Of a DNA stretch of 33,274 bases, positions 1 to 15,012 are shown piece by piece. The notes beneath the pieces are model-generated. The model saw only the letters and a program-made list of their open reading frames with translations, did no database searches and was not told where the DNA came from. Position 1 is the stretch's first letter. Each line of letters begins with the position of its first letter. Location: positions 1 to 33,274 of the IMG/VR virus record IMGVR_UViG_3300042356_000980; one strand, 5' to 3'. This DNA is from a virus. The translations under genes and the position numbers were made by a program.

Positions 1-1714
1 CAACTAACAATACGCAACCGTATTCTTTACATTTGCTTTCAATACGAGCTGTGGTACTTACAGCATCGCCTAATACATCATAACTGTGGCGCTGTGTGCT
101 GCCCATTTCACCAATATAGCCAAGTCCTGTGTTGATACCAGCACCCATTTTAACTCCAGGACGACCTTCGGCTTCAAGTTTCTTACTAAACTCTTTAACA
201 GCACGAACCATTTGAAGTCCTACTGCCACCGCTGTCTTGGCGTGGTCTGGATCATCTATAGGAGCATTGTGTATGTGCATCGACGCATCACCGATGTATT
301 TGATAACCATACCGTTGGCTTCTAAGATAGGCTGTGTAATGGCATCCATGTATCCATTCATAACTTGAGTAAGTCCACCCACGTCGTCACCAAAACTTTC
401 GCCTAGTGGGGTAAATCCGCGTAAATCGGAGAAGCAGATTGACACTTCACGTTTGGTGCCTTTTTTGATTAGATCTGGATTCTTCTGAAGCATTTCAACC
501 ACAGTTGGTGACGCATAGCCAGAAAATTGTTTCTTGATAGCTTGTTTCTGTAAGAATTCACTTACAAACTTAACGCCATAAGCGTGAAGCAGGACCAGAA
601 CAAGACCAGCAACAGGCAAACTTGCATCCACGAGCCAAGAATAGCGGCTATAAGCAATTCCGCAAAGAGGAATAATACTACCGACAACAACAATACTACT
701 AATAATCCCGACATAAGTCCACCTTGTTAAAAATAATAATACAAATCCAATTACAACAATGGCAATAACCTCTGCACCGTCGGCCCAATCTGGACGAGTG
801 ATTACAGGACGATCTCTATTGGCAATCACTGTGCCTAACACAGCCGCTTGTAATTCTTGTGGCAACATCTCGCCCTGGCTTGTAGCTACAGGGTTTGCGA
901 GTCCTTGGGCACTTACGCCAACAATCACTATCTCGCCATCAAAGTCTTTGGGTAAATCAGTCAGGCCGTGAACCTCTGGTGTCATTGACCAATCAATCCA
1001 TATACGACTTAGGCTGTCTGTGGCAACCGGTCCAAACTTAGGAATACGCATTTTCTCAACGCCATTCTCGTTTAGTTTAACTTGAAATGTGGTGTCGCCA
1101 GCGGCCACACGCAGTGTTTCCATAGCAAGACTTGGATATAGTTTGCTGCCGCTGGCAACCAACAACGGCATACGACGAACTACCCCGTCAACTTCAGGAA
1201 ATGTGTTTATAATACCTACACCTGCCGCGGCATTCTCTACCGCGGGCACATTGGCAATGATACCAGGGTATTCTACAATTTGGTTAGCGTGTGGTCCAAT
1301 GACCACCGAGCCTGGCTGGCGGGGTTGGTTTCGAGTTTGTTGAGCTCCAACAGATGGAAGGATAACGGGGTATCGGCGGAGTGCTTGTGCATAGTCCATA
1401 TCGCGACCCATACGATCAGGATCAGGAGTAAGGATATTAAAAACAACAAGGCCAGCATTACGCCGATATAAGTCAGCAATAATGGTACTGTAGATATTAC
1501 GGGGAAAAGGATATTGGCCATATTTTTCTAATGCTTTCTCATCAATGTTTACAACATGAACGCCTATGACTTCTGGTGCTTTACTTGTAACCAGTGTATC
1601 AAAGTATCTTAGACGAATACTCTCTACAAACATAGGGTCTGCCATACGCAGGCCGACAATGAGTGCTAAAGTAATTAGTGCTGTCCAGGGACTAGTTAAT
1701 ATTTTTTTGAACAT
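1..1714 (-). CDS. CHASE2-domain class III nucleotide cyclase, 3' end cut by window edge
   Basis: Predicted membrane cyclase making cyclic nucleotide, probably cAMP, in response to a signal outside the cytoplasm. The ATG is at 1714; 571 codons are visible and the frame is still open at base 1. Residues 7-23 form a membrane segment, about 27-298 a CHASE2 extracytoplasmic sensor, and about 313-380 three membrane helices. The linker (FSGYASPTVVEML) is typical of this family. The catalytic domain starts near 424. Metal-binding Asp430 (FSDLRGFT) and Asp476 (KYIGDA) are present, as are the adenine-type residues Lys472 and Asp546 and the transition-state Arg557. The usual Asn four residues before that Arg is Ser553. 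It is the last visible gene of the curli block and starts only 14 bases after a terminator-like hairpin, with no clear Shine-Dalgarno. CHASE2 cyclases beside FecR-domain genes are known in bacteria; a phage copy is unusual. Family call very sure; product nucleotide and activity inferred. Confidence 0.93.
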   Translation of the reverse strand, partial: MFKKILTSPWTALITLALIVGLRMADPMFVESIRLRYFDTLVTSKAPEVIGVHVVNIDEKALEKYGQYPFPRNIYSTIIADLYRRNAGLVVFNILTPDPDRMGRDMDYAQALRRYPVILPSVGAQQTRNQPRQPGSVVIGPHANQIVEYPGIIANVPAVENAAAGVGIINTFPEVDGVVRRMPLLVASGSKLYPSLAMETLRVAAGDTTFQVKLNENGVEKMRIPKFGPVATDSLSRIWIDWSMTPEVHGLTDLPKDFDGEIVIVGVSAQGLANPVATSQGEMLPQELQAAVLGTVIANRDRPVITRPDWADGAEVIAIVVIGFVLLFLTRWTYVGIISSIVVVGSIIPLCGIAYSRYSWLVDASLPVAGLVLVLLHAYGVKFVSEFLQKQAIKKQFSGYASPTVVEMLQKNPDLIKKGTKREVSICFSDLRGFTPLGESFGDDVGGLTQVMNGYMDAITQPILEANGMVIKYIGDASMHIHNAPIDDPDHAKTAVAVGLQMVRAVKEFSKKLEAEGRPGVKMGAGINTGLGYIGEMGSTQRHSYDVLGDAVSTTARIESKCKEYGCVLLV

Positions 1715-1727
1715 AGTATATTTAAGG

Positions 1728-1752
1728 AAAAAAATACCCACAATTAAGTGGG
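1728..1752 (-). terminator. Probable intrinsic terminator or attenuator before the cyclase
   Basis: Read on the minus strand, a CCCAC/GTGGG stem with a six-base loop is followed by TA and a run of seven T. It sits between the second curlin-like gene and the cyclase and ends 14 bases before the cyclase ATG. It should therefore lower cyclase transcription relative to the curlin genes unless read through. The stem has only five GC-rich pairs, so its strength is uncertain. Confidence 0.6.
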
Positions 1753-1792
1753 CAGTTAAAAATATTGCGTAGCTGGCTTGTTGTTATTATTA

Positions 1793-1815
1793 TGCCTGCA
1801 TTTTATTTACAGGCA
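1793..1815 (-). other. Short stem-loop after the second curlin-like gene
   Basis: An inverted repeat TGCCTG/CAGGCA encloses an 11-base AT-rich loop that contains TAAATA on the minus strand. It lies just past the stop codon of the second curlin-like gene. There is no T run after it on the minus strand, so it is not a standard terminator. It may protect the 3' end of the upstream message or be fortuitous. Confidence 0.35.
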
Positions 1816-1827
1816 GATTGAAAAAAG

Positions 1828-2388
1828 TTAATTGCGTATATAACTGTAACTGCCACAGGTGGTGCATTGAATGGTCATGGCCCCGGTGTTGGCCTGTGTA
1901 GGATTGGTCTGTTGAACTGTAACCAAGGCTCCGTTGGTTCCATCCAAGGTCAAGGCAAAAGATTTTTCTCCTGTACCTGACTGTGTGGCCGATATGGTGT
2001 TATTGACATTGTTAGTATTAGCTGTAGAGCTAATGCTGAAGGTATGATTACTAGCACCACTTTGATCAACAGTGATTAGATTACTACTGGCTCGAGGTAA
2101 TTCAATAGTGGTTGTGTGGCTTGCAACCCCTTGCTGATTAATTGTTACACTGTTGTATTCGCTTGTGCCCACTCCAGTATACGGAGTTGTACCAATACCA
2201 TACCCAGTCTTTAGATCATTGGTGTTGGTAGGCAAGGTAGCACCAATGGCCACGGCGGCCAAGTGACCTGTGCCATCCTGAGTGACAGTGATTTGATTGT
2301 TATTGCCCACCTGGTCAATGTAGATGTAATTGTTTTGTGCAGAAACACAGGAACAGGCAACAAGAAAAAGAATGGCAAGGATTTTCAT
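1828..2388 (-). CDS. Curlin-like exported amyloid-repeat protein (second copy)
   Basis: Exported protein of 186 residues with curlin-type repeats. Residues 1-17 are a signal peptide ending in VSA-Q. The mature start (YIYIDQVGNNNQITVTQDG) closely resembles that of the curlin at 3530-4345, and later segments repeat the N-x-I/V-x-V-x-Q-x-G pattern (SVTINQQG, LITVDQSG, TISATQSG). Unlike the other copy it ends in a short Cys-containing tail (CTTCGSYSYIRN). Its ATG overlaps the FecR gene stop as TAATG with no good Shine-Dalgarno, implying coupled translation. By analogy with CsgA/CsgB it could be a minor or nucleating subunit exported through CsgG, but nothing in the sequence proves which role. Repeats and signal peptide are seen; amyloid formation is inferred. 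Confidence 0.82.
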   Translation of the reverse strand: MKILAILFLVACSCVSAQNNYIYIDQVGNNNQITVTQDGTGHLAAVAIGATLPTNTNDLKTGYGIGTTPYTGVGTSEYNSVTINQQGVASHTTTIELPRASSNLITVDQSGASNHTFSISSTANTNNVNNTISATQSGTGEKSFALTLDGTNGALVTVQQTNPTQANTGAMTIQCTTCGSYSYIRN

Positions 2389-3509
2389 TAGTTCTGTTTC
2401 AAGGTAATAGTAGTAGTGCCGGTATTGTTAACACGATTTTTAACTTCAACACTGCCTTGTATTTGATAAATGGTCAGGCTACGAGTACGATCTACTCGCA
2501 CACTTTGTTTGTTACTGCCATCATCTCTAGATAGTTCCACAGCAAGTGTATCGACTTCGGCAACAACGCCGGTACTGGCCTTATAGTCAGGAAGTAGCGA
2601 GGTGGCCTGTGATACTACCAACAAGTTTCTATTTGCAGCACCTATTTGTTCATTAATGATGTCTAACAAGTTGGGTAATAAGTTGGCTTCAAGTGGATTA
2701 CGACTTAACTTGTCTTGATACATTTCCTTTTGCTCTTTGTCTAGCTGGTTAACCAACTGATTTTCTTTAAGGAAATCCGCATCAAGAGCATTGAATCCAC
2801 CGGATCGAGTTTTTGATTGATCATCCCCTCGTATCAATTGTACTGGAGGACTTAAAATCAAAATATTACTGATAGAATCTTCTGTTAAATCAACTGTAAC
2901 CGGCTTAACGGGTGCTGTACTACGACTAGTAACTCGAGTGGCTTGAAACGCTTGATCTAAGGTAACCGACCCAGCATCGTTATACACATCAATTACTCCA
3001 ACTTTACAGTCACGTTCAACATTCTTGTATCCCTCAGGACAACTAGGTAATAGAATAATTGTGCTTTGTCCCAGTTCATCCACAGTAGCACTAAAGTCTG
3101 TGCCACGAACAGCAATCGTAGCAGTAGGAGTATTAATGGCTACTTTGCTAGGATTATTTTTAGCAATCGCGCCGCTGGCATACCGAGCTGTGCCCGAAGC
3201 CATGTTGAGAGCCAGCTTACCTGCGTCTTTATTTTTAGGGTCGTAGACAAAGTCGTCAATGACCAATCTTGAATTTTCATTTACTTTTACCTGAGTATCG
3301 TCGGCAAATCTAATCCCAACTTTGCCCGCTGCTGTTTTGATCTCGTCCTGCATCTCCACTCCGGTCCCCTTGGTCCCCTGTAGAGTAGTCTTCGATCGTT
3401 GTATCGAAGGAACTGCTGCTTGTTGCTCGGTAATTGTCCCGATAGCGGCTTTGCTTATCGGAGATATACTCAGCAAGAGTGCGAATATGATTAGCTTGCA
3501 TATTTTCAT
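2388..3509 (-). CDS. Exported FecR-domain protein
   Basis: A 373-residue exported protein, likely periplasmic or surface-held. I use the ATG at 3509, preceded by an AGGGGG Shine-Dalgarno, rather than the in-frame TTG just upstream. Residues 1-21 are a signal peptide (SKA-AIG). A FecR-type beta domain spans about 45-150, with the typical core (IRFADDTQVKVNENSRLVIDDF, then IAVRGTDFSATV). The rest lacks a recognised domain: a charged, probably helical stretch (about 235-290) and a basic/beta C-terminus. There is no membrane anchor or anti-sigma segment and no sigma factor nearby, so a classical FecR-FecI pair is not indicated. FecR genes often adjoin CHASE2 cyclases in bacteria, and here it lies between two curlin genes in the same unit. 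A role in sensing or scaffolding the amyloid outside the membrane is inference. Confidence 0.85.
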   Translation of the reverse strand: MKICKLIIFALLLSISPISKAAIGTITEQQAAVPSIQRSKTTLQGTKGTGVEMQDEIKTAAGKVGIRFADDTQVKVNENSRLVIDDFVYDPKNKDAGKLALNMASGTARYASGAIAKNNPSKVAINTPTATIAVRGTDFSATVDELGQSTIILLPSCPEGYKNVERDCKVGVIDVYNDAGSVTLDQAFQATRVTSRSTAPVKPVTVDLTEDSISNILILSPPVQLIRGDDQSKTRSGGFNALDADFLKENQLVNQLDKEQKEMYQDKLSRNPLEANLLPNLLDIINEQIGAANRNLLVVSQATSLLPDYKASTGVVAEVDTLAVELSRDDGSNKQSVRVDRTRSLTIYQIQGSVEVKNRVNNTGTTTITLKQN

Positions 3510-3529
3510 CAATCCCCCTATACAAATAC

Positions 3530-4345
3530 TCAGTGCGTATTACTGTTGATAGTAAATGTGTTTGTGTTCCCTACACTTTTAAGGTTTACAATGCTGTCTG
3601 CACTGGTGCCTTGTTGCGTAATTCCAACTGTGTTGCCAGACCCGTTAAAATCTAATGCGGCACTGTGTCCATTAGTACCACCGCCAGTTTGTGAAACATT
3701 AAATGTGTTGCTTGCACCAACGCTGAGTATACCAATTGTGCCTTTGTTGTTGGTTGTACTAGCAGCATCATCACCTTGTGTAAGGGTGGCTGTATTACTG
3801 CCACCTCCAGACATGGTAACTGTTTGAGTATTATTATCACCGTTGATCTTACTAACAAAACTATTGTAAGTGCCGCCGGATGTAGTTGCAGTAATTTGAT
3901 TAGCAGAACCTAACATACTAATATCAGTATTAGAATTGTTTCCGGTTTGATTAACTGCTACCCGGTTACTAGCACTTATTCCTTGACCGTTACTGTTACT
4001 GTTAATTGTTGCTGTACTATTATTACCAGTTACAGTATAACTATAGACATTGCCATTGTTAACACCTGCGGCCACTGTGGTAACAATACCAAAGTTTAAT
4101 GTGTTACCTGTACCGATTTGATTTACAGTAACTTGGTTGCCGTCTCCGTAGATCTTAGCTGGGGTAGTGTTGCTTGTGCCTGCACCTTGAATACCACGAA
4201 CGGTATTTCCTGCACCGTCTTGAGTGATCGATACCTGTGTATTGTCGCCAGCCTGATCAATGTAGATACTATTGTCTGCTGCCCCTGCGAATGCCATGCT
4301 GAATGCGAGAGTAATCGCGGCAATGGCTTTTGCTATTTTTTTCAT
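3530..4345 (-). CDS. Curlin-type major amyloid subunit candidate
   Basis: A 271-residue exported repeat protein. Residues 1-22 are a signal peptide (MAFAGA-ADNS). The mature chain is rich in Asn, Gly, Thr, Ser and Gln and carries many curlin-type units: IYIDQAGDNTQVSITQDG near the start, then QVTVNQIGTGN, RVAVNQTGNNSN, TFNVSQTGGG and TVGITQQG. The N-x5-Q-x-G spacing is the pattern of CsgA/CsgB strand-loop-strand repeats. It is longer than E. coli CsgA (about 150 residues), suggesting more rungs. It follows csgG and has its own 5' region with a TAAATA motif, a hairpin and a good AGGAG ribosome site, fitting high expression. It is probably the main fibre subunit; this rests on family resemblance and operon context. 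Confidence 0.87.
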   Translation of the reverse strand: MKKIAKAIAAITLAFSMAFAGAADNSIYIDQAGDNTQVSITQDGAGNTVRGIQGAGTSNTTPAKIYGDGNQVTVNQIGTGNTLNFGIVTTVAAGVNNGNVYSYTVTGNNSTATINSNSNGQGISASNRVAVNQTGNNSNTDISMLGSANQITATTSGGTYNSFVSKINGDNNTQTVTMSGGGSNTATLTQGDDAASTTNNKGTIGILSVGASNTFNVSQTGGGTNGHSAALDFNGSGNTVGITQQGTSADSIVNLKSVGNTNTFTINSNTH

Positions 4346-4382
4346 AGCTCCTGCTCCTTTGGCTCTTTGGCCTTATTATTAA

Positions 4383-4409
4383 AGTGGATCTTTGTCCACT
4401 ATATATTTA
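4383..4409 (-). promoter_or_regulatory. TAAATA motif plus GTGGA/TCCAC hairpin ahead of the curlin gene
   Basis: On the minus strand TAAATA (4404-4409) is followed after three bases by a perfect hairpin, AGTGGA-CAAAGA-TCCACT (4383-4400). The curlin ATG is 38 bases beyond the hairpin. The same order with the same GTGGA/TCCAC stem core appears before clpS and hsp20. TAAATA resembles the T4-type late promoter TATAAATA. The hairpin has no T run, so it reads as a 5' leader structure rather than a terminator. Confidence 0.5.
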
Positions 4410-4440
4410 CAGGAAAAAAGCCGGTCGTAAAGTAAGTGCT

Positions 4441-5391
4441 TTATCTTTGGCCTGCCGGTGCGGCTTCGTAGCCTATTTGTTCGGCCACTTCTGGAGTGCT
4501 AGGCACTACCGGAGTAGGAACAGGGTCATTTTTGATCACCGGCAATGCCGCCGGTGCCACTGGACGAGCATCAGATGGAATCTGAACCATTGGTGTACGA
4601 TAGTCCCATACACCCTTGCGCTCGCCTTCTTTGATCAATTCGACCACCGCAGCTTCTATTGTGGCTTTAACAGCAAGTGTGCCAGGCTCATTAATTGTCA
4701 GGCCAGTTTCTGCTTCAAATGCCTGTGTGTTGTTGTTCAGAAATTTTAACACAGCTACGCTGTCTGCGGTGCTATAGACAATTTTAGTTACAGTAACAGC
4801 TGCTAACACTTTGCCTGTATTGACACTAACTGCTCGCAAGCTGATAGTTACAGTATCTTTTGAATACATTGTACTGGGACCAATGCCCAACCAACGATAT
4901 GCGGCACCGCCTGATTCTGTTCCTGAATCATACCCAATGATACCACCTTCCATGATGATGCCGGCAAACTGCATGGGCATTAAAGGTTTAGCATTTTTGC
5001 CTTCATAGGCTTCGCGCATTTGGCGGATGATCAAGCGTTCTTTTGTGAGTGCATCAATGTTAGTGCGTTCTACTACATCAAACCACTGTCCATGTCCAAC
5101 ATCTTGTAGAGCTTTAATTAAGAATACCTCGGCACCCTGGGTAACTGCTGTACTGAAATTGGCCACATTGGGTTGTTGACGTTTTTGACCTGTTTTGTCT
5201 GTAAACTGGTATACCGCAACACTAATTTTATTACCTGCTGGTGGAGGTATAGTATCGAACTCTCGTTGTAAAACATTGTCTGCTACCTGTGGTTTATACT
5301 TTTGTTCGGCGCCCATTTGCTCACGAACCTTGGTAGGAACTGCGCCATTAAAATACCAAACAAGCACTGCTATTGCGATTAGCCATTCCAT
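4441..5391 (-). CDS. csgG: CsgG-family curli secretion pore
   Basis: Homologue of CsgG, the outer-membrane channel that exports curli subunits. Length 316 against 277 in E. coli, with a Pro/Ala/Val-rich tail from about 275. Conserved family stretches are clear: KISVAVYQFTDKTG (55-68), the constriction-loop region with NFSTAV (78-83), VVERTNIDALTKERLIIR, IIMEGGIIGYDSGTESGG (about 145-162), and the strand region SLRAVSVNTGKVL (184-196). The N-terminus is a hydrophobic segment (residues 3-14) but the protein has no cysteine at all. The lipobox Cys that anchors E. coli CsgG is therefore absent, and no alternative upstream start was found. Its ATG overlaps the csgF stop as TAATG, so the two are translationally coupled. 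Function assigned with high confidence; membrane insertion without lipidation is an open point. Confidence 0.93.
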   Translation of the reverse strand: MEWLIAIAVLVWYFNGAVPTKVREQMGAEQKYKPQVADNVLQREFDTIPPPAGNKISVAVYQFTDKTGQKRQQPNVANFSTAVTQGAEVFLIKALQDVGHGQWFDVVERTNIDALTKERLIIRQMREAYEGKNAKPLMPMQFAGIIMEGGIIGYDSGTESGGAAYRWLGIGPSTMYSKDTVTISLRAVSVNTGKVLAAVTVTKIVYSTADSVAVLKFLNNNTQAFEAETGLTINEPGTLAVKATIEAAVVELIKEGERKGVWDYRTPMVQIPSDARPVAPAALPVIKNDPVPTPVVPSTPEVAEQIGYEAAPAGQR

Positions 5392-5852
5392 TATGGTGTT
5401 CCTGTGGGAAATTGAAATTGTCCTAACGGAATACTGACGGAGGTTTGATTACCTACACTGTCAGTTACTTGTAGGTTGACCATTTGGCCATCCTTACTCC
5501 AGAAGATTGTGTTGCCTTCAAAGTCGAGTGTGCCGTAGTTATTAGTTCCACCATTGGCAAACATGGCTGTGGCTAAGTTTTGACTGATCTGTGCGTAGAT
5601 GCGTGATTCTAAGTTGTTCATAAACTTGGCAATATTTGTGTTTGACTGGTCAGCTTTGAGCTTGTCCAGTCCTGCTTGAATATCTTTTTGTAATTGTGCT
5701 TTACGAGTAGTTTCTTGATTCTCAATGGTCAACACGTGACTACTGTAGCCCAATCCGTTAAACGCTGGACTCTTAAATGTATAATCTGGCAATGGTGTTG
5801 CAAAAACCGACATTGCAAATAACCCTAGCAAAGTTAATGTTATTATTTTCAT
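5391..5852 (-). CDS. csgF: CsgF-family curli assembly factor
   Basis: Homologue of CsgF, which binds the CsgG pore at the cell surface and helps position the nucleator. At 153 residues it is near the family size. Residues 1-18 are a signal peptide (VFA-TPLP). The mature N-terminus TPLPDYTFKSPAFNGLG corresponds to the CsgF segment that enters the CsgG channel (F-x-NPxFGG in E. coli). The C-terminal half (ESRIYAQISQNL, then GQMVNLQVTDSVGNQTSVSIPL) matches the E. coli C-terminal domain pattern. It is the first gene of the curli unit. Its start sits in the 3' arm of a 9-bp inverted repeat that covers the weak ribosome site, so translation may be restrained. No csgE, csgC or csgD is in the window. 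Confidence 0.86.
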   Translation of the reverse strand: MKIITLTLLGLFAMSVFATPLPDYTFKSPAFNGLGYSSHVLTIENQETTRKAQLQKDIQAGLDKLKADQSNTNIAKFMNNLESRIYAQISQNLATAMFANGGTNNYGTLDFEGNTIFWSKDGQMVNLQVTDSVGNQTSVSIPLGQFQFPTGTP

Positions 5853-5885
5853 ACTCTCGCTCTTGAAATAGTATTTAGCGAGAGT
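5853..5885 (-). promoter_or_regulatory. Inverted repeat covering the csgF ribosome-binding region
   Basis: The 9-bp perfect repeats 5853-5861 and 5877-5885 (AGCGAGAGT type) flank a 15-base loop and end directly at the csgF ATG. The purine-rich 3' arm is the only Shine-Dalgarno-like sequence, so the folded leader would hide it. TAAATA on the minus strand (5872-5877) overlaps the 5' arm and could be the promoter core. The structure is seen; regulation is inferred. Confidence 0.5.
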
Positions 5886-5900
5886 AGTATTACAGTTGGG

Positions 5901-6272
5901 TTAGCTCTGGAGCGGGTCTGCTTTTTCTAACATGTAATCCCAATTTTCACCTGGATCATTGTCTTTGTAGTTGTTGATACGATTTTGAATTTCTGCATAA
6001 AATGTATCTAATTCTCCGCCAAAATTCCCTACTAGATTTTCAATAGCCTGAGAGCAAAAATTCCAATCTCTCTTACGATAATTTTCTATAAGATTACAAT
6101 GTAAATCTTTTTGAAAACTTAATTTAGGTAAATCTGGAATTGGAATATTTTCAACCACTGCGTATGCAGTAGCCGTAGTTCCGCTAGGTATAAAATGCAC
6201 TGTGTCTAATTCTAACACCGTATATTTTTTTCCTATTTCGTGTGCTTGTTCATCTCCAAATATTATGTACAT
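5901..6272 (-). CDS. Conserved-type phage protein of unknown function
   Basis: A 123-residue acidic soluble protein with no signal peptide or membrane segment. I choose the ATG at 6272 because AGGAG stands seven bases upstream. The frame can be read ten codons further, but that would overlap the divergent phosphoesterase gene. It has a beta-rich first half (MYIIFGDEQAHEIG, TVLELDTVHF, TATAYAVVENIPI) and a helical second half (DWNFCSQAIENLVGN, ELDTFYAEIQNRI). I do not recognise a characterised family. It lies between csgF and the plus-strand phosphoesterase; whether it shares a transcript with the curli genes is unclear. Confidence 0.75.
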   Translation of the reverse strand: MYIIFGDEQAHEIGKKYTVLELDTVHFIPSGTTATAYAVVENIPIPDLPKLSFQKDLHCNLIENYRKRDWNFCSQAIENLVGNFGGELDTFYAEIQNRINNYKDNDPGENWDYMLEKADPLQS

Positions 6273-6296
6273 TTGTTTCTCCTGTAAATAGTTATC

Positions 6297-7085
6297 ATGC
6301 ATTTCGCCTTTGATTTAATTTCTGACCTACACGTCGAGACCTGGGATAAATTTAACTGGGTCGGACAACCTACCGCTCCGTATTGTGTAGTAGCCGGCGA
6401 TGTTAGTCGAGATCCCGAACTTGTAATGGAAACCTTAGAACACCTAGGACAACAATACGCCGGGGTGTTCTATATTGACGGCAACGATGAACATAGATAT
6501 TATCTTGAAGATTTGAACGGCAGCTATCAAGTTTTAAGAGAGGCAATTAAAGGTGTTAAAAATGTAGTGTTTATGCAAGATAATGTGGTCATTGTCAATG
6601 GCGTTGCTATTTTGGCTACCAACGGATGGTGGACTTATGATTTTGCTACTGAATTTAGTATTGAAGAAAGTCAAGAATGGTTTCAAGACTATGCACAAAT
6701 ATCAAATTCAAGTGCTAATGCTATAACTGGTGTGGCCCATCACGATGCTGCATATATTATTAATAGTGTAAGTAAATTGCAACGGCAACGAGACGTTAGT
6801 TCAATTGTTATTGTTAGTCATACTGTACCGGCACCCTGGATTATTAAACACGATATTGATTTAGCAGATAATGTACGATTTAATACCATGGGAAATTTAC
6901 ACTTACAACAAGCACTGGACGAAGATACAGAAAATAAAGTAAAGGCCTGGTGTTTTGGTCATTATCATAAAAGTGTCGACCGAGACTTTGGTGGTGTGCG
7001 ATACGTTAGTAATCCTCGAGGTCGAGGAGATACCACTTGGCAACAAAATCCATACTTTCCAAAACGAATTGAATTTGAGATTTAG
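6297..7085 (+). CDS. Calcineurin-like metallophosphoesterase
   Basis: The only convincing plus-strand gene. It encodes 262 residues of the calcineurin-like phosphoesterase fold, a family that hydrolyses phosphomono- or diesters using two metal ions. Motifs in order are D10-x-H12 (DLHVE), G34-D35 (AGDVS), G62-N63-D64-E65-H66, H175 (VSHTVPAPW) and G221-H222-Y223-H224. The usual GNH(D/E) motif reads GNDEH, so Asp stands where the catalytic His is expected, with a His two residues later. Substrate is unknown. It is divergent from the unknown gene at 5901-6272, and its last bases overlap clpS tail to tail, the two stop codons sharing bases on opposite strands. No strong Shine-Dalgarno is visible; TAAATA lies six bases before the ATG. 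Family sure, activity less so. Confidence 0.88.
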   Translation: MHFAFDLISDLHVETWDKFNWVGQPTAPYCVVAGDVSRDPELVMETLEHLGQQYAGVFYIDGNDEHRYYLEDLNGSYQVLREAIKGVKNVVFMQDNVVIVNGVAILATNGWWTYDFATEFSIEESQEWFQDYAQISNSSANAITGVAHHDAAYIINSVSKLQRQRDVSSIVIVSHTVPAPWIIKHDIDLADNVRFNTMGNLHLQQALDEDTENKVKAWCFGHYHKSVDRDFGGVRYVSNPRGRGDTTWQQNPYFPKRIEFEI

Positions 7086-7390
7086 GCCGTTTCAGGCTCT
7101 AGTTTAATTTGCAATGGGAAATTATTACTGCGAGCACATAAGGTAACTTCAATTCCTTTTTGCTCAGCAATCTCGTAAGGCAGTACAGCCACTACCGCAG
7201 CCCCTTGAGAATGAATATCTTCCATAATTTTTACTGCTGTTTGCGTGGTATAATTAAAAAAATCAATTAAAGTTTCAATCACAAACTCCATGCTGGTTTG
7301 ACTGTCATTCAAATAAATGATTTTAAACATAGGAGGCTCTTTGATACCTTCAACAGTTTTTATTTTTGCGATAGCATCAGATTGTGACAT
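7082..7390 (-). CDS. clpS: ClpS-like N-degron adaptor
   Basis: Homologue of ClpS, which binds proteins with destabilising N-terminal residues and delivers them to ClpAP. The 102 residues span the whole family: a flexible N-terminus, then PPMFKIIYLNDSQTSMEFVIETL (from 19) and the IMEDIHSQGAAVVAVL region. Residues that grip the N-degron amino group are conserved (Asn28, Asp29, His60). The second acidic residue common after ND is Ser30. No ClpA or ClpP is in the window, so it would act on host ClpAP; whether it helps or blocks degradation cannot be read from sequence. It lies directly after hsp20 and has its own TAAATA-hairpin leader and an AAAGGA ribosome site. Confidence 0.88.
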   Translation of the reverse strand: MSQSDAIAKIKTVEGIKEPPMFKIIYLNDSQTSMEFVIETLIDFFNYTTQTAVKIMEDIHSQGAAVVAVLPYEIAEQKGIEVTLCARSNNFPLQIKLEPETA

Positions 7391-7407
7391 TTATGGTCCT
7401 TTGAAAT

Positions 7408-7439
7408 AGTGGAGGGCACCCTGCCCTCCACTGTATTTA
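7408..7439 (-). promoter_or_regulatory. TAAATA motif plus perfect 10-bp hairpin ahead of clpS
   Basis: Minus-strand TAAATA (7434-7439) is followed after one base by a 10-bp perfect stem, AGTGGAGGGC/GCCCTCCACT (7408-7432), with a 5-base loop. The clpS Shine-Dalgarno follows about ten bases later. The sequence after the stem is ATTTCAAAGG, too poor in T for a good terminator. The stem begins with the same AGTGGA as the curlin leader hairpin. Confidence 0.5.
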
Positions 7440-7449
7440 CTATATTATA

Positions 7450-7893
7450 CTAGTTTGCGTAAGTAATCGCAATAGTCTTTGGTTTCATTGCGTCAGGAAG
7501 TCGACGTTCTAACTTGATAGTTAAAATGCCATCTTGAGATAATGCACTAATAACTTCAACATAATTGTCAAGAGTAAAAGAACGAACAAAACGACGGGCA
7601 CTGATGCCGTGGTGTTCGTAAGTATGACCCTCGGGTAATTCTGTTACAGGCTTTTCGCCAGTGATAATTAGTTGACCCTCATTGACATTCACTTCTACTT
7701 CACCTTGAGTAAAGCCGGCAACCGCTACTTGGATTTCGTAGGTGTTCTCGCCTGTTTTTAAGATGTTGTATGGTGGATAGTTGGTATTGCTGTTAGCCGT
7801 GTCAATTTGATTTGTGATGCGATCAAATAAACGGTCAATACCAATGGAATTGCGATAGAATGGACTAAGGTCCAGAGTTGTGATTTTTGTCAT
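7450..7893 (-). CDS. hsp20: Small heat-shock protein, IbpA/Hsp20 type
   Basis: A 147-residue alpha-crystallin-domain chaperone that holds unfolding proteins without ATP. The N-terminal arm includes FYRNSIGIDRLFDRI as in IbpA. The alpha-crystallin domain covers about 40-135 (YEIQVAVAGF, LIITGEK, RRFVRSFTL, DGILTIKL) and ends in PDAMKP with a C-terminal I-x-I anchor (IAI). Hsp20 genes of this type are common in T4-like phages of aquatic bacteria, where a role in folding or virion assembly is usually proposed. It is flanked on both sides by strong hairpins and has an AAAGGAG ribosome site, suggesting high, separately controlled expression. Confidence 0.94.
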   Translation of the reverse strand: MTKITTLDLSPFYRNSIGIDRLFDRITNQIDTANSNTNYPPYNILKTGENTYEIQVAVAGFTQGEVEVNVNEGQLIITGEKPVTELPEGHTYEHHGISARRFVRSFTLDNYVEVISALSQDGILTIKLERRLPDAMKPKTIAITYAN

Positions 7894-7920
7894 TGTTTTC
7901 TCCTTTGTTAAGCAAGTGAC

Positions 7921-7960
7921 ATACTGTGGACCCGACCATCGGCATCCACAGTATTATTTA
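7921..7960 (-). promoter_or_regulatory. TAAATA motif plus long hairpin leader of hsp20
   Basis: Minus-strand TAAATA (7955-7960) abuts a 10-bp perfect stem, ATACTGTGGA/TCCACAGTAT (7921-7954), with an inner CCGA/TCGG stem. No T run follows it. The hsp20 Shine-Dalgarno is outside the stem, so this is not a simple masking thermometer. TAAATA overlaps the stop codon of the upstream gene. The GTGGA/TCCAC core is shared with the curlin and clpS leaders. Confidence 0.5.
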
Positions 7961-8200
7961 GTATCGTTCGTTGGCTACATCAATAACTTGATATTGTAAC
8001 CAAGGGCGCAATTCTAGATCAGCCGGATTCCAAGTCATAACAAACAAACTAAAATGCTCGGCTTGGTCAAATCCAACTCTATGGTGATATTTTATTGTTT
8101 TGTAAGTATAGCGGACGCCATACCTTTCTGCCCAACTCTTTACTTCTCTTTTGATATCTTCCAGTTCGTTGTTGTAACGAACATCAAATCTGATATACAC
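7958..8200 (-). CDS. Small unknown protein between hsp20 and bS21
   Basis: An 80-residue protein if read from the GTG at 8200, just after the bS21 stop. The open frame can also be read from a GTG at 8266, but that would run 65 bases inside bS21. Neither start has a clear Shine-Dalgarno, so the start is uncertain. It has a beta strand (VYIRFDVRY), a charged helix (ELEDIKREVKSWAERYG), another strand (YTYKTIKYHHRVGF) and an aromatic C-terminus (LFVMTWNPADLELRPWLQYQ). I do not recognise it. Position and coding look support a real gene that may be coupled to bS21. Confidence 0.65.
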   Translation of the reverse strand: MYIRFDVRYNNELEDIKREVKSWAERYGVRYTYKTIKYHHRVGFDQAEHFSLFVMTWNPADLELRPWLQYQVIDVANERY

Positions 8201-8201
8201 A

Positions 8202-8426
8202 TCAATACTGTTTTTTAGGAAGTTGCTGACTGCGTAACTGTTTACGCCAACGTGCTTTTGCGGCACCTTTTTTGCGTTTACGTTCTGTTGTTGGTTTTTC
8301 GTATGTTTCTCTAGCTCGTAAATCTTCTAACAGGCCGGATTCTTGCACTTTTTTCTTGAATTTTCTAAGAGCTTTTTCTACATTGCCGTCAGTGATTAGT
8401 ACCGAATTTCCGTAGAATTGCTTCAT
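8202..8426 (-). CDS. rpsU: Ribosomal protein bS21
   Basis: A 74-residue homologue of small-subunit protein bS21, which helps the 30S subunit select mRNA starts near the anti-Shine-Dalgarno. It has the family layout: a short strand, then [22 protein letters not shown] and the hallmark [12 protein letters not shown], followed by a basic helix and tail. Length matches the bacterial family (about 70). bS21 is known from several large phages and is thought to redirect host ribosomes to phage messages; that role is inference here. It starts by a 4-base ATGA overlap with the end of clpX, and a TAAATA lies 29 bases upstream of its ATG inside clpX. Confidence 0.94.
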
Positions 8427-9628
8427 AAATTTTCTTGCAATAGTGTCATAGGCGTATTTACCTGGGTTTTATTGATTGTCACTTGTAAAATGTCAGCTTT
8501 TCGGTAACGTGGTAAGTCAAACATATGACATAGCAATACCCGCTCTAGTTCACTATGTAACCCTCTGGCACCGGTTCGAGTATTAAGGGTACGTTCTGCT
8601 ATAATGTCCAGGCTTTCTGCATCAAATAACAATTCAACTCCATCTTGATCAAATAACCACTTGTATTGACCAACAAAGTTGTGTTGAACTTCGGTTAAAA
8701 TACTAATCAACTGCGGTTTTGTTAAATTATGTAAACTAACATAACTACTAAACCGGCCAACAAACTCTGGTATTAACCCGTATCGAACCAAATCATCAGG
8801 ACTAACTTCTGCTAAATCAACCTCTACTGGATCGGTCAACTTGGCATTAAACCCCATGCTGGTGCCCTGAAGCCGAGTTTTTACAATATTTTCTAAACCA
8901 ACAAATGCGCCGCCGGCAATGAATAAAATATTAGTAGTATCAATTTCAATGCCGTCGCTGGTGGCCTGTTTTCGACTTCCTTGCGGTATAATTTTGCACT
9001 TGGTTCCTTCTACTAACTTTAGCAGGGCCTGTTGTACTCCCTCGCCACTTACATCTTTGCTCACAGTGGCACTTTCGCTCTTACGACTGATTTTATCAAT
9101 TTCATCTAGAAAAATAATGCCACGTTGACAGCGGTCTACATCATTATTGGCTGCAGTATACAAACGAGCAATAAGACTTTCAACATCGTCACCCACATAG
9201 CCCGCTTCGGTCAAGGTAGTGGCATCAGCAACAACAAATGGCACATCAAGATAGCGAGCAACTGAGCGGGCCATAAGTGTTTTACCGGTACCGGTTGGCC
9301 CGATCATCAGGATATTGCCTTTGGATATTTCTGTGGCAGTATCTAAGTTATTGATTCGTTTGTAATGATTGGTTATGGCCACGGCCAATACAATTTTAGC
9401 TGTGTCCTGCCCTACAACATATTGATTTAAGTAATCACGAATGTCCCTAGGATCTGGGATTGATTTTTTTGTTGGGTCTTTCTTGCCAGATTTTTTAGTA
9501 TCTTTAAGCAGATTATTGCAAAGATCCACACACTCATTACAAATGGCCACGGTGTGACTGACAATTATTTTACCAACTGTATCTTTGTGTTTATTACAAA
9601 AACTACAGTGACTTAAGGTGTCTGTCAT
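8423..9628 (-). CDS. clpX: ClpX-type AAA+ unfoldase
   Basis: A full-length ClpX homologue (401 residues against 424 in E. coli), an ATP-driven hexameric unfoldase that normally feeds ClpP. The N-terminal zinc domain has C8, C11, C30 and C33. Walker A is at 110-117 (GPTGTGKT), Walker B at 171-176 (IIFLDE) and the pore loop at 143-146 (GYVG). The C-terminal sensor region TRTGARGL is present. Two functional loops differ from E. coli: RKH is RKQ (219-221), and the ClpP-docking IGF loop is MGF (258-260). No clpP is in the window, so it may use host ClpP, reprogram its substrate choice, or work as an unfoldase alone, for example in virion assembly. Its ATG follows the previous stop by one base, and bS21 follows with an ATGA overlap. 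Confidence 0.95.
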
Positions 9629-9629
9629 G

Positions 9630-11189
9630 TTATCCTAACTTGGGATATTGTTGTAAACGAAGTGCTATATGGTCGCGTTCGGCATTGCTTAATAACTCTG
9701 GATCGTATTCACCAGAATCAATTTTGTTAATTAGATGATCGATGTAGGCATCGTTGTATGCATAATTGTCGCTGAGATCTTTATCAACTTGAATCCAGTT
9801 TACTCCATTAAATTTATACAGAGCACTGGGTAGTTGATCAACCCGCAAGAACATATCACCTTTTTTTACATTTGTTGGAAATTTAGACCCAAATCCTTGA
9901 ACCTCACCGGTTGGTCCCGTGGGCACATTATCTGCTTCAAGTACTAACTGATCTTGATACTCTGGGCGTTCCCATGGTAGTTGATCAATGGCCCCGGCGT
10001 GATATAATTTTTCATACCGTTTCATTGTATCGCCTGGATGAGCAAATTTCCATGCTCGTTTAGCTGTACGATTTAGTTTACTTTCTTGATCTAGCACCTC
10101 CGATTCATTGTTGGTGGAGGCATCGGGCAAAGACTTATTAAACATCCAGCCTGGTGGGCTCGGGTCAACATCAACTTTCTCAGGCTGAATCATTGGATCT
10201 TTGGCAAGCTCGTTAAGCGGAGCAGATGCATTAGGATTAGTTCCAGTAACATCTTGACGTAATATCTCATCTGCATGATAATAGTCTTCTACGGGTATAT
10301 GTGTATGCTGATCTTTTTTGGCCTCTTGCATAGACTTATTAATCTGATCTATTTGGTCATCTGTTAACTGCCCATCACCAGCTTCATACTCTGATTCATC
10401 TTCTTTTTTCTTCTTAGAATTGAATAAATCAATACTATGTTCCCATTCAAAGGCCTTAGTGGCTGCCAATAATAATGTCAAGGCTAGCGGATCAAACACA
10501 ATAACAATAAGGATAATAACCCAGCGTACTGCTCGTTCTAATACATTTGTATCGGGGTCGTCGCCATATATTAACGCCGCAATATATTTAATTGGTCCTA
10601 CTTCTGCGTCTACCTTGCGGGCGGCACTAGCAACAGGAGCTCTCTGTTCCTGTAGTCCGGTAATTTCTTTTTGTGCTTTAGAGATATCATTTTGCAAGGC
10701 AGTCCGCTCTCGACCTTGACTACGTCGGAGGTTCGCAGCTTTATCTGCGCCTTGTTCGCTTGAACTGCGTGACATAGTTTGATCCACTGCGGCATCCATC
10801 TGAGACAGGGCTTTTCTTGCAGCTTCAATGTTATCTTTTTGGGTTCGAATTTTATCATCAAATATTTGTACCTGCGCCTGTACATCTCCAGATGGTATTG
10901 CCTGATCTAAATGCGCCTTGCTGAGGAATCCAAATACCCCCATGGAAGTCAGGACCATTAATACCATCACCGCCGAAGATAGATATAATTTGTATTGTAT
11001 CTCGGCCTGTTTCCAGTACTTGTGTAACCATAATACTGTGACAATTTTACCAATTTCCAAACTTCCACCGAGAACTACAATAGGCCAAAAGGCCGCGGCA
11101 AATATAGCAGTTAAGCCTAGTATAGAATAAACTGCAGCCGATAAACTAAGTATCAGTGCGGTAACAAGGGTCATATATCCAAAAAGCAT
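9630..11189 (-). CDS. Large membrane protein with coiled coil and acidic linker, unknown function
   Basis: A 519-residue membrane protein. It has three or four hydrophobic helices in the first 95 residues, a long charged coiled-coil region (about 105-195), another membrane segment (about 220-245, WVIILIVIVFDPLALTLLL), then a hydrophilic, acidic, probably disordered stretch (about 260-420). A compact C-terminal domain follows (KKGDMFLRVDQLPSALYKFNG, about 443-463). The mix of membrane anchor, coil and small folded tail suggests a cell-envelope or virion-associated role, but I do not recognise a characterised family. It starts at 11189, eight bases after a TAAATA that overlaps the preceding stop codon. 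There is no clear Shine-Dalgarno. Confidence 0.85.
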   Translation of the reverse strand: MLFGYMTLVTALILSLSAAVYSILGLTAIFAAAFWPIVVLGGSLEIGKIVTVLWLHKYWKQAEIQYKLYLSSAVMVLMVLTSMGVFGFLSKAHLDQAIPSGDVQAQVQIFDDKIRTQKDNIEAARKALSQMDAAVDQTMSRSSSEQGADKAANLRRSQGRERTALQNDISKAQKEITGLQEQRAPVASAARKVDAEVGPIKYIAALIYGDDPDTNVLERAVRWVIILIVIVFDPLALTLLLAATKAFEWEHSIDLFNSKKKKEDESEYEAGDGQLTDDQIDQINKSMQEAKKDQHTHIPVEDYYHADEILRQDVTGTNPNASAPLNELAKDPMIQPEKVDVDPSPPGWMFNKSLPDASTNNESEVLDQESKLNRTAKRAWKFAHPGDTMKRYEKLYHAGAIDQLPWERPEYQDQLVLEADNVPTGPTGEVQGFGSKFPTNVKKGDMFLRVDQLPSALYKFNGVNWIQVDKDLSDNYAYNDAYIDHLINKIDSGEYDPELLSNAERDHIALRLQQYPKLG

Positions 11190-11199
11190 AGACTAATAT

Positions 11200-11424
11200 T
11201 TATTTGGATTCAAATCGAGTTAATGCAAGGTTAATTTCTCTTTCAGCGGTGACAATGCGGCATTCTAGTTGGCGGATACGTTTTTCACAGTGTAATACTC
11301 GTATGGCCAAGAATATTGTAATGGCAACAATGATGGTAAAGCTGGCGCCCCAGCCGACAATAATGCTATAGGTCCAGTACCACAAACTGTCAATACCCTG
11401 GGTTAATAAATTAACAGAAGTCAT
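11200..11424 (-). CDS. Small single-pass membrane protein with coiled coil
   Basis: A 74-residue protein from the ATG at 11424; an in-frame TTG further up would overlap the BI-1 gene. One membrane helix (ASFTIIVAITIFLAIRVL) is followed by a charged amphipathic helix (CEKRIRQLECRIVTAEREI). No known family recognised. It sits between the BI-1-like gene and the 519-residue membrane protein, all in one direction with minimal spacing, so a shared membrane-associated function is possible. Confidence 0.72.
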   Translation of the reverse strand: MTSVNLLTQGIDSLWYWTYSIIVGWGASFTIIVAITIFLAIRVLHCEKRIRQLECRIVTAEREINLALTRFESK

Positions 11425-11425
11425 A

Positions 11426-12094
11426 CTATTCTTTACGCCCGCCAAATAATTGTAATAGATTGATAAACAAATTGATAAAATCCATGTACAGGTTTAATGC
11501 CCCCGATACCTCGGCTACTCCGGTACTGTCCTGACTAACCATTTCACGGATTTTTTGGGTGTCGTAGGCTGTTAATCCTAAAAAAATTATAATGGCCAAT
11601 GCCGAGATAACCATCTGCATCACAGTACTACCAATAAAGATATTAACAATACTGGCAAGGATAATAGCAATAAGCCCCACAATCATAAACTTACCCATGC
11701 TATCCAGACTGGTCTTGGTAAAATATCCGTAGACACTCATGGTAATAAACAGAATAGCTGCGCCAAAAAATGCACCAATGATACTGGTGCCAGTGTACAC
11801 TACAAAGATTGAACTCATACTCAGTCCCATTAGGGCGGCAAACAATTGCAACATGGTCTGGGCCTGGAGTTTAGTTGCTTTGGTCATGGCCCAAGACATG
11901 GCAAAAATCATGGCCAGCGGAGCAAATATCACAATCCATTTCATGACACCTGTAAAAAAGAACTGCATGAGTGCAGGACTGGTCGATACCAAATAACTTA
12001 CTACCATGCTAGTAATCACAGCCAAGGACATGTTATTATACACCCGTAACATGGCACTATTTACTTCTGTGGCGCCTCGATAAACTGCTTCCAT
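11426..12094 (-). CDS. Bax inhibitor-1 / YccA-YbhL family membrane protein
   Basis: A 222-residue polytopic membrane protein with about seven helices. I use the ATG at 12094, which has an AAGGAG ribosome site; the open frame runs 73 codons further up but that part overlaps the next gene. Strong family signatures shared with E. coli YbhL/YccA are LSMSSIFVVYTGTSIIGAFF, SVYGYFTKTSLDSMG, the conserved GLTAYDTQKIREM and the C-terminal LNLYMDFINLFINLLQLFG. YccA binds and restrains the membrane protease FtsH, and BI-1 proteins can also act as calcium leak channels. A phage copy could protect phage membrane proteins or alter FtsH activity; that is inference. Family assignment is firm. Confidence 0.92.
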   Translation of the reverse strand: MEAVYRGATEVNSAMLRVYNNMSLAVITSMVVSYLVSTSPALMQFFFTGVMKWIVIFAPLAMIFAMSWAMTKATKLQAQTMLQLFAALMGLSMSSIFVVYTGTSIIGAFFGAAILFITMSVYGYFTKTSLDSMGKFMIVGLIAIILASIVNIFIGSTVMQMVISALAIIIFLGLTAYDTQKIREMVSQDSTGVAEVSGALNLYMDFINLFINLLQLFGGRKE

Positions 12095-12110
12095 TTTATT
12101 TCTCCTTAAA

Positions 12111-12332
12111 TTATTCCGGTTTGCCGCCGGTGCACGAACCATCTGCAAACCAAAGATCTTGTGCCTGTTTTTGATATTCAGCCAGGTCATTATCTTTGCG
12201 TTCTTCTTCTTCAAGCCACAACATTTTTTGATGCTGATACAGGTCTTCACTAAGAGCATGCCAGCCAAGACATTTGCCAGTGGGGCTACGACCACATCCG
12301 CACAGGCCGGCAACTTTAGAGTTTGGCATCAT
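12111..12332 (-). CDS. Small CDGSH-like Cys/His protein
   Basis: A 73-residue hydrophilic protein. I start it at the ATG at 12332 (AGGA upstream) just inside the end of the preceding gene. Near the N-terminus it has C-G-C-G-R-S-P-T-G-K-C-L-G-W-H, a three-Cys one-His pattern close to the CDGSH iron-sulphur motif (C-x-C-x2-S/T-x3-P-x-C-D-G-x-H) but one residue shorter and lacking CDG. The rest is a charged helix (LYQHQKMLWLEEEERK) with one more Cys near the end. It may bind a 2Fe-2S cluster or zinc. It is followed by the BI-1 gene. Gene call good, cofactor uncertain. Confidence 0.68.
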   Translation of the reverse strand: MMPNSKVAGLCGCGRSPTGKCLGWHALSEDLYQHQKMLWLEEEERKDNDLAEYQKQAQDLWFADGSCTGGKPE

Positions 12333-12585
12333 TAATTTGTTTCCTAAGATTAATATTTTGTTCCAACATCTCTTGTGCCAATCTTTTATAGTAAGTGGCA
12401 TCATCATGCGTTTGTACATGCTGTGGAATTGTTTTAATTTCTTGCATTACTCGAGTAGGTATATTATTTTTTCCAATAAAATATCCAACCGCTCCACCAA
12501 GGATAGACCAATAAATGGGCCTAAATAATATCCAAATACATCCCCATACAATTAAAATCGCCCAAAACCATAAAAATGCTTCCAT
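12316..12585 (-). CDS. Small membrane protein, unknown function
   Basis: An 89-residue protein with an N-terminal hydrophobic hairpin (about 4-40, Trp-rich, containing GGAVGYFIGKN) and a charged, helical C-terminal half. Its end overlaps the start of the CDGSH-like gene by 17 bases. The ATG follows the previous stop codon by two bases. No family recognised; membrane anchoring is the only safe statement. Confidence 0.75.
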   Translation of the reverse strand: MEAFLWFWAILIVWGCIWILFRPIYWSILGGAVGYFIGKNNIPTRVMQEIKTIPQHVQTHDDATYYKRLAQEMLEQNINLRKQINDAKL

Positions 12586-12587
12586 GT

Positions 12588-12797
12588 CTACTCGTCCCGG
12601 GGCATGTTAGCTGCTTCTTTAACTAACTCAAGTAACTGTTCAATACTTGGAACCATAATTTTAGCATTACGCCAGTCATCTTCGCCGTTTTTACCGCCGA
12701 TGTCAATTAAAAATCCATTGTCATACATGGTGATACTAAAATGGTCATTTACTGTAGTGAGCTTGTCACTGATTTTATTGATTGGTTTCCTTGCCAT
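12588..12797 (-). CDS. Small acidic protein, unknown function
   Basis: A 69-residue soluble protein: a basic N-terminus (MARKPINKISDK), a beta-rich middle (HFSITMYDNGFLIDIGGKNGEDDW) and a C-terminal helix (SIEQLLELVKEAANM). Its ATG overlaps the stop codon of the preceding mini-gene as TAATG, so translation is probably coupled. No known domain recognised. The compact fold and conserved-looking Gly/Asp turn suggest a real small phage protein. Confidence 0.75.
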   Translation of the reverse strand: MARKPINKISDKLTTVNDHFSITMYDNGFLIDIGGKNGEDDWRNAKIMVPSIEQLLELVKEAANMPRDE

Positions 12798-12901
12798 TAT
12801 TTGTCCTCGAGTTTATCTGCACAATCTTTACATTTACAAATGATCAACACTACTAACAGTGAAATAATAATTACCAATGTTCCTTCAACTAGCCACATCA
12901 T
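12797..12901 (-). CDS. 34-residue membrane mini-protein with CKCKDC motif
   Basis: A very short gene in the gap after the DNA ligase. The ATG at 12901 overlaps the ligase stop (ATGA type) and has AGGAG upstream. The product begins MMWLVEGTL, has a single hydrophobic helix (LVIIISLLVVLII) and ends in a cytoplasmic-type tail with CKCKDC and acidic/basic residues. The stop overlaps the next ATG as TAATG. Perfect fit between two coupled genes plus a good ribosome site make it likely real. Function unknown; the three Cys could bind metal. Confidence 0.7.
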   Translation of the reverse strand: MMWLVEGTLVIIISLLVVLIICKCKDCADKLEDK

Positions 12902-14301: not shown

Positions 14302-14615
14302 TATTTTAAATCCATAATATGATTAATAACGGCTGTTGCTTCTGGAAAGCCTTGTTTCTCTTTTGAGAGAACTATAGTTTCAATCATGTCCATTTGGATA
14401 TTGTATAATCCAGATACAAAGGTCATAATATCTTCTTTTTTCATCTTGTAAGTAATTTTATATTGCTTTTCTAGCTGAGCTTTTTCAACTTCGTTCTTTA
14501 AAGCGTCATACCAAACAACTTTAGGCGCCGTTGGATTAATGTGACGACCATCATCCGGTGTAGGAGCTTCATTCATACACTTACGCATGAATGCGTCAAA
14601 GTCTTCGGCGTTCAT
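14301..14615 (-). CDS. Small unknown phage protein before the ligase
   Basis: A 104-residue soluble, mainly helical protein (FDAFMRKCMNEA, ALKNEVEKAQLEKQYK, FVSGLYNIQMDMIETIVLS). No signal peptide, membrane segment or known motif. It overlaps both neighbours as TAATG, placing it in a coupled run from the promoter at 14979-15007 through this gene to the ligase. The context suggests an early or replication-linked function, but nothing in the protein itself shows one. Confidence 0.78.
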   Translation of the reverse strand: MNAEDFDAFMRKCMNEAPTPDDGRHINPTAPKVVWYDALKNEVEKAQLEKQYKITYKMKKEDIMTFVSGLYNIQMDMIETIVLSKEKQGFPEATAVINHIMDLK

Positions 14616-14947: not shown

Positions 14948-14978
14948 TTCAGCTCCTACTTGTTTAGTTTATAGTACT

Positions 14979-15007
14979 ATTATAGCAGTTGGACCATTTC
15001 TGGTCAA
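14979..15007 (-). promoter_or_regulatory. Near-consensus sigma70-type promoter
   Basis: On the minus strand TTGACC (15002-15007) and TATAAT (14979-14984) are separated by exactly 17 bases. The start site would fall near 14972, about 25 bases before the ATG at 14947. The sequence GGTTGACCAGAAATG and the bases GCTATAAT are identical to those at 15303-15331, so the two promoters are copies of one design. Confidence 0.88.
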
Positions 15008-15012
15008 CCAAC

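Follow-up and report, generated by a model that had tools for sequence, protein, structure and literature searches.

The window, which is the entire 33,274-base virus record IMGVR_UViG_3300042356_000980 of the IMG/VR database, carries at its start a phage curli cassette of a kind already known from ocean phages, though somewhat modified and belonging to another phage lineage. A Pfam scan placed six genes on the minus strand within the first 5.9 kb, in the order csgF, csgG, curlin 1, FecR, curlin 2 and CHASE2 cyclase, in agreement with a preliminary description of this DNA. On balance, and with considerable reserve, we favor the reading that these genes form a type VIII (curli) secretion cassette belonging to the virus itself, which would build a surface amyloid sensed by FecR and the cyclase. 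This reading draws on the observed gene content and order, viral setting, conservation, linkage to a pair of small membrane-protein genes and shared upstream motif, and on protein families and predicted folds. The six genes are the following:

5391..5852, minus strand: csgF, extracellular partner of the curli pore (PF10614, E 3.6e-14; phrog_35372, E 2.8e-59), with a hydrophobic signal segment at residues 3-21 in a hydropathy scan.
4441..5391, minus strand: csgG, curli secretion pore (PF03783, E 7.5e-47), without a lipobox cysteine in the window lineage.
3530..4345, minus strand: curlin-repeat protein 1, with a signal peptide and a predicted beta-solenoid (PF07012, E 0.001, 19.4 bits against a cut-off of 20.7).
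2388..3512, minus strand: FecR-domain exported protein (PF04773, E 3.9e-11), with a signal peptide, an anchoring/FecR-like region, a helical linker and an all-beta tail.
1828..2388, minus strand: curlin-repeat protein 2, with a signal peptide (PF07012, E 2.3e-8, above cut-off).
2..1741, minus strand: CHASE2 class III nucleotide cyclase, truncated at the record end (PF05226, E 4.3e-37; PF00211, E 4.5e-16).

Most of these genes had been described as coupled by TAATG overlaps. Two of the five junctions (csgF/csgG and fecR/curlin 2) do overlap by one base, but the other three are gapped by 95, 17 and 86 bases. Continuity across the join between curli and phage genes was borne out by a second record of 41,138 bases, IMGVR_UViG_3300044624_002199 (locus L004), which repeats window positions 1-15391 with one mismatch and extends about 8 kb further. 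It also supplied the complete cyclase of 691 amino acids (aa).

A scan of IMG/VR for csgG gave 31 loci, 28 of which showed csgF, csgG, curlin and FecR in this order; the remaining three contigs stop in or just past csgG. clpS and csgF occurred together in 36 loci, some of them from identical or near-identical contigs. Terminase and capsid genes had been named as a check on a viral origin. Head genes were found neither on the window nor on L004, but a Gp23-type capsid gene was present on 10 of 19 records (8 of 17 from IMG/VR, together with the phages Melnitz and HTVC008M), and a terminase match at E 0.001 on 11 of the 19. The terminase profile also matched 11 of 14 control genomes, and only strong matches on phage records were counted. 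Weak matches were those on records G011 (E 8e-4) and G019 (E 4e-7), and the match on G005 (the 265,680-base record of locus L025, positions 61452-62726) is interrupted by three stops (two TAG, one TGA). Among syntenic relatives bearing a terminase, G010 (87,685 bases, locus L009; TerL E 9.4e-43) was the closest, and relatives were found on records of up to 372 kb. The head and packaging genes that accompany marine-type phage type VIII secretion systems (T8SS) are thus seen through the relatives.

In a tree of CsgG, built by a quick method from 75 of 147 rows, all 44 phage rows fell on one side (Shimodaira-Hasegawa-like approximate likelihood ratio test, SH-aLRT, 87), opposite 30 bacterial rows (98); the row of a bacterium, Hyphomonas, had a long branch and an unsure placement. 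By this sequence comparison, the cassette seems to be an old lineage of the viruses' own. In view of an equally ordered operon in Hyphomonas and of several contigs of metagenome-assembled genomes (MAGs) with such cassettes, the window could be suspected of being bacterial DNA or a chimeric assembly. We give this a negligible probability and rejected it on account of the second record, although that might stem from related reads, the synteny within IMG/VR including the loci with clpS, the terminase and Gp23 genes on relatives, and the CsgG tree.

By its linkage, the module has at least two further parts. Two related small membrane-protein genes of about 93 and 105 codons, belonging to phrog_18771 (no function assigned in that family), were found outside the window:

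L004 16155-16946, strand opposite to the cyclase: small membrane pair, beyond the cyclase.

The small genes that go with a marine-type T8SS are therefore represented on L004, and in Melnitz and HTVC008M the pair sits in front of csgF. Within a phage collection of 50,697 records the first pair protein matched only four Melnitz and two HTVC008M records. A scan of IMG/VR with the same protein gave at least 580 relatives, of which the best 80 loci were used. Parts of the cassette lay beside the pair in 69 of them, 39 with csgG in the fetched DNA and 30 more with the cyclase, either alone or along with curlin or FecR; in the other 11, at most 2.7 kb remains past the pair on the side usually holding the cassette. 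Records of 18 of the 41 loci without csgG in the fetched DNA were searched, and csgG was found elsewhere on 11, while the pair was near the contig end in seven. The linkage was also seen from csgG: among marine loci (best 80 of 194 fetched with HTVC008M CsgG), all 72 with more than 1.8 kb upstream of csgG carried the pair or one member, and in 13 of the 80 one member lay between csgF and csgG. The first pair gene had no match in 385 alphaproteobacterial genomes at E 1e-4, and ten matches to it were on five contigs of the MAG Water_Bin34, which evidently holds phage contigs. Its ratio of nonsynonymous to synonymous substitution rates (dN/dS) was 0.03-0.04 in three comparisons; here and for csgG, csgF, curlin 1, FecR and the cyclase we report comparisons with unsaturated dS. 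This made it the most conserved part of the module. Neither pair protein matched Pfam above cut-off. One or two small genes labelled 'HK' accompany the cassette in phages (PMC9599517). The pair probably corresponds to these genes labelled as histidine kinases, but we infer that its members are too short to be ordinary kinases.

The N-terminus of the second pair protein weakly matched the holin family phrog_4898 (E 9.2e-5 over 22 residues; E 0.022 for the first protein). Together with the linkage of the pair to the cassette and the missing CsgG lipobox in the window, this could mean that the CsgG pore serves lysis or its timing, with the pair as holin-like partners, and a pinholin- or secretin-like role has been proposed for Melnitz (PMC9004378). 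We consider a lysis function unlikely. The proposal assumes that curlin subunits are absent, csgA and csgB being described as lacking, yet two curlin-associated repeat proteins are annotated within the cassette of the Melnitz record MZ577097.1, at 52015-54809. The dN/dS values of csgF, curlin 1 and FecR are below 1 (curlin 2 is saturated), and the position of a pair member between csgF and csgG in marine loci points to a role in secretion.

The hexamer TAAATA was found within 100 bases upstream of the first pair gene in 63 of 74 distinct loci (mean of mononucleotide shuffles 11.4, most 20), of csgF in 38 of 57 (mean 7.4, most 14) and of the cyclase in 31 of 65 (mean 7.6, most 15). The counts were 11 of 64 for curlin 1 (mean 7.3, most 16), 0 of 61 for csgG, 1 of 60 for FecR and 0 of 27 for curlin 2. 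This distribution suggests shared regulation of the pair, the csgF unit and the cyclase. Within the window, TAAATA coincides with a putative structure:

5845..5920, minus strand: candidate control element of the csgF unit, a hairpin over the csgF start with TAAATA at the loop.

Its predicted RNA fold had -15.8 kcal/mol (z -3.21) and was equalled by 2 of 200 shuffles; hairpins that place the motif at the loop were not general among the relatives. The longer form CTAAATA, which we liken to the T4-type late promoter motif, occurs six times in the window, as by chance; four minus-strand copies lie 26-68 bases before genes, as noticed after the fact. A T4-type late promoter was rejected on this chance-level count and on the Gp23 capsid loci, where among four only the Melnitz gene had TAAATA within 100 bases. 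Since the capsid loci do not support a promoter, we claim TAAATA only as a shared motif.

Curlin repeats were assessed by motif counts and by modelling. Counts of Q.[GS]..N exceeded shuffles in curlin 2 (p 0.0185) and did not in curlin 1 (p 0.10), and a looser motif was not above shuffles in either protein. Spacing of N/Q at 20-24 residues was above shuffles in curlin 1 (p 0.005; p 0.19 for curlin 2). The AlphaFold model of curlin 1 was a beta-solenoid with a predicted local distance difference test score (pLDDT) of 85.5 and a predicted template modelling score (pTM) of 0.81. A VIA comparison of this model listed beta-helices, whose repeat arrangement is common, at Z 13-17, with no CsgA entry among the matches listed. 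dN/dS of curlin 1 was 0.115-0.335, while dS of curlin 2 was saturated in every comparison. The slot of the second curlin holds related proteins of 258-852 aa in loci L010 (6067-8625), L019 (13186-14919), L032 and L034. The longer ones have large N-terminal extensions ahead of the curlin repeats, and the two extensions scanned matched no Pfam family above cut-off.

The lipobox cysteine was present in 60 of 62 distinct, 5'-complete viral CsgG proteins and absent from those of the window (with L004) and locus L005. The 62 comprised IMG/VR loci, Melnitz, HTVC008M and four phage-like MAG loci, the set preceding the later marine scan. CsgG of the canonical T8SS is a lipoprotein, and E. coli CsgG depends on its lipobox. 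The N-terminus of the window CsgG contains no cysteine at all, although the close relative L033 keeps the lipobox, and the window sub-lineage appears to have swapped its CsgG signal. This raises the question of whether secretion is impaired or repurposed in the sub-lineage, with CsgG, no longer lipid-anchored, failing to reach the outer membrane and the remaining genes retained. We regard such a loss as rather improbable, as csgG is constrained between L004 and L005 (dN/dS 0.053, 86% identity over 272 codons) and the protein therefore seems still to work at something. A literature search on CsgG lipidation returned nothing relevant. csgF showed dN/dS of 0.085-0.235.

The absence of csgE from the window, as previously described, was confirmed, and none of 20 records (the window and 19 others including the complete Melnitz and HTVC008M; several are fragments) gave a csgE match at E 0.1 in a search in which the E. 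coli control was matched. The preliminary description had considered a minimal or host-assisted system on these grounds. Since the Hyphomonas genome bearing a similar operon was also without a csgE match, host assistance need not follow. The missing gate in these records, some of them fragments, might also fit a pore that imports large nutrients or cofactors with FecR and the cyclase as nutrient sensors, as proposed in PMC7029224 and PMC9599517. We judge import very unlikely, as it leaves CsgF and two curlin proteins unexplained and the conserved gene order holds no receptor or transporter gene.

The cyclase combines a CHASE2 domain with the residues of a class III adenylate cyclase. The two metal Asp, the adenine-selecting Lys/Asp and the catalytic Arg were invariant in all 26 aligned cyclases, but the position that holds the transition-state Asn in class III enzymes was Ser in 16 of them, including that of the window. 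The sensor domain was predicted to lie outside the inner membrane. dN/dS was 0.14-0.16, with the comparisons to L005 (23% identity) and L116 (41%) excluded as wrong or partial genes. The co-occurrence of FecR and CHASE2 cyclase genes in bacteria, described earlier as established, was seen in the alphaproteobacterial sample, where at least 26 of 385 genomes had both within about 3 kb (read by eye among the matches listed).

The FecR protein was modelled with a pLDDT of 77.1 and a pTM of 0.51. Residues 53-216 resembled the signalling domain of PupR (6ovk; Foldseek E 2.1e-4; VIA Z 15.7, root mean square deviation, rmsd, 2.6, 135 residues aligned). Residues 21-117 resembled 5ix9, a 'Cell surface anchoring domain' (Foldseek E 0.02; VIA Z 6.8, rmsd 3.1, 73/76), which we take to be the retention domain of an RTX adhesin from Marinomonas. 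Such a domain keeps RTX adhesins in their secretion channel (PMC12077191); a literature search joining adhesin retention modules with FecR found nothing. The window FecR is thus like both known domains in fold, but has an additional helical linker and beta tail. A periplasmic FecR/CSS domain as in FecR-type anti-sigma regulators is present (PF04773; match to 6ovk), but a simple hydropathy scan found the signal segment and no further hydrophobic helix that could span the membrane, and the gene adjoins curlins instead of a sigma factor. Two cysteines are nearly invariant in these proteins, and dN/dS was 0.16-0.26. Comparison of the all-beta tail with the curlin C-terminus gave a profile score of 17.3, against at most 16.3 in 150 column shuffles, and an HHalign probability of 1.8%, a weak likeness. 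A terminal beta-Q pattern, picked after inspecting FecR ends, was present in 51 of 58 distinct FecR proteins, 37 of 69 curlin 1, 11 of 29 curlin 2, 18 of 61 CsgF, 5 of 61 CsgG and 1 of 77 cyclases.

Taken as a virus-own secretion cassette, CsgG and CsgF would form the export pore, and the two curlin proteins, judging from their families and fold, may be the cargo that passes through it and forms amyloid on the infected cell's surface. FecR would be exported to the periplasm, probably to the pore or fibre base, where it might act as anchor or nucleator. The CHASE2 cyclase could read the state of pore or fibre and make cyclic AMP (cAMP), and the small membrane pair would complete the module. A benefit might lie in adhesion or clumping of infected cells, or in shielding from rival phages. 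A more specific version is possible but doubtful. It holds that the machine is the virus's own rather than a partial, borrowed operon, that the inner-membrane pair replaces CsgE, that FecR is an anchor or nucleator plugged into pore and fibre base instead of a regulator of transcription, that the cyclase converts the assembly state into cAMP so that an infected cell would detect the amyloid coat it bears, and that the pore of the window lineage works without a lipid anchor.

Several results weigh against the amyloid cassette as favored here. Foldseek gave no match of the curlin 1 model to the Protein Data Bank (PDB) at E 0.001, the window CsgG lacks the lipobox on which the E. coli protein depends, and Ser occupies the transition-state position of its cyclase. 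For FecR, the pTM of 0.51, the middling Z score with 5ix9 and the weak likeness of its tail to curlin count in the same direction. Melnitz-infected cultures, moreover, showed no clumping under the conditions used (PMC9004378). If phages coat infected cells with a sensed amyloid, this would have consequences for aggregation and superinfection in natural waters and for encounter rates there.

The rest of the window encodes hsp20, clpS, clpX, bS21, a PAAR protein, DNA ligase, structural-type proteins, an exonuclease and nrdA. Among the phage-type neighbors described earlier, hsp20, bS21, PAAR and nrdA were matched, and nrdB was assigned by eye only. ClpS and ClpX are both encoded on the minus strand, at 7082-7390 and 8423-9628, and ClpS lies near the cassette in many relatives. 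A heme oxygenase gene adjoins clpS in L006 (7169-7696) and relatives, a cluster of 17 loci (PF01126 in the one member scanned). Envelope-type genes for a calcineurin-like phosphoesterase (LpxH-like by eye), a RimK-like ATP-grasp protein and a D-Ala-D-Ala carboxypeptidase were found in or beside the cassette of L006 (15881-17514), L007, L025, L026 and L010 (10789-11526). The window further encodes, all on the minus strand, IscS-, IscA- and IscU-like iron-sulphur assembly proteins (20832-22097 and 29047-29750) and a membrane protein of the Bax1-I family (11426-12313; PF01027, E 2.8e-52). It held no Rfam RNA at gathering score and no tRNA.

The curli genes of E. coli are laid out as csgBAC and csgDEFG. 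The CsgG and CsgF families and the curlin repeats are common to that system and the window, whereas the window system is without a csgE match and lipobox and has FecR and the cyclase in addition. A curli operon combining FecR and cyclase exists in at least one bacterium. Among the best 80 of at least 565 csgG loci in GTDB, with flanks of up to 8 kb, the sole cellular operon with the order csgF, csgG, curlin, FecR and CHASE2 cyclase was that of the MAG Hyphomonas sp. TMED17 (L036), flanked by bacterial-type genes on a contig of 705 kb. It differs in having one curlin of 504 aa, with no second curlin listed, and no match to the first pair gene. Among the 385 alphaproteobacterial genomes, its cyclase scored 902.8 bits against 575.9 for the next and its FecR 286.3 against 136.1. 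The cyclase was found at E 1e-60 in 1 of 105 genomes of its family, and a related cyclase at E 1e-70 in 158 of the 385 genomes of its class. The loci L035, L038, L039 and L050 are on short contigs that look like phage DNA, in MAGs labelled Rhodobacteraceae, Pelagibacter and Pirellulales.

Among phages, a partial curli system was reported earlier (PMC7029224), FecR, adenylate cyclase and CsgA/B were described in pelagiphages including HTVC023P-type podoviruses (PMC9599517), and csgGF in temperate sediment viruses has been mentioned (PMC9636769). Amyloid display, capture of siblings and protection from competing phages have already been proposed (PMC7029224, PMC9599517). No curli genes from jumbo phages or large freshwater phages were among the matches listed in our literature search. 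With the present cassette, the range of such modules reaches past marine pelagi- and methylophages into another lineage. A bacterial operon built on the same plan is identified, and a concrete reading of FecR as a possible pore anchor or fibre nucleator is offered.

The closest known counterparts are Melnitz and HTVC008M. In the phage collection the window FecR matched only their four and two records, respectively; CsgG matched these and a 1.5-kb fragment labelled Salmonella, and the cyclase these and three partial matches. Both phages share the complete order csgF, csgG, curlin, FecR, curlin and CHASE2 cyclase, the phage setting and the lack of a CsgE match. As in the marine type, csgF and csgG of the window are adjacent and followed by a curlin-repeat gene (curlin 1, just under the Pfam cut-off and a predicted solenoid), and then by FecR, the second curlin and the cyclase in succession. 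The window cyclase is 47% identical to that of Melnitz and 35% to that of HTVC008M, and CsgG 38-39% to both in the alignment. The window lineage differs by its hsp20-clpS neighbors, its records of up to 372 kb, its CsgG without lipobox and the placement of the small membrane pair, which is found past the cyclase on the opposite strand instead of preceding csgF.

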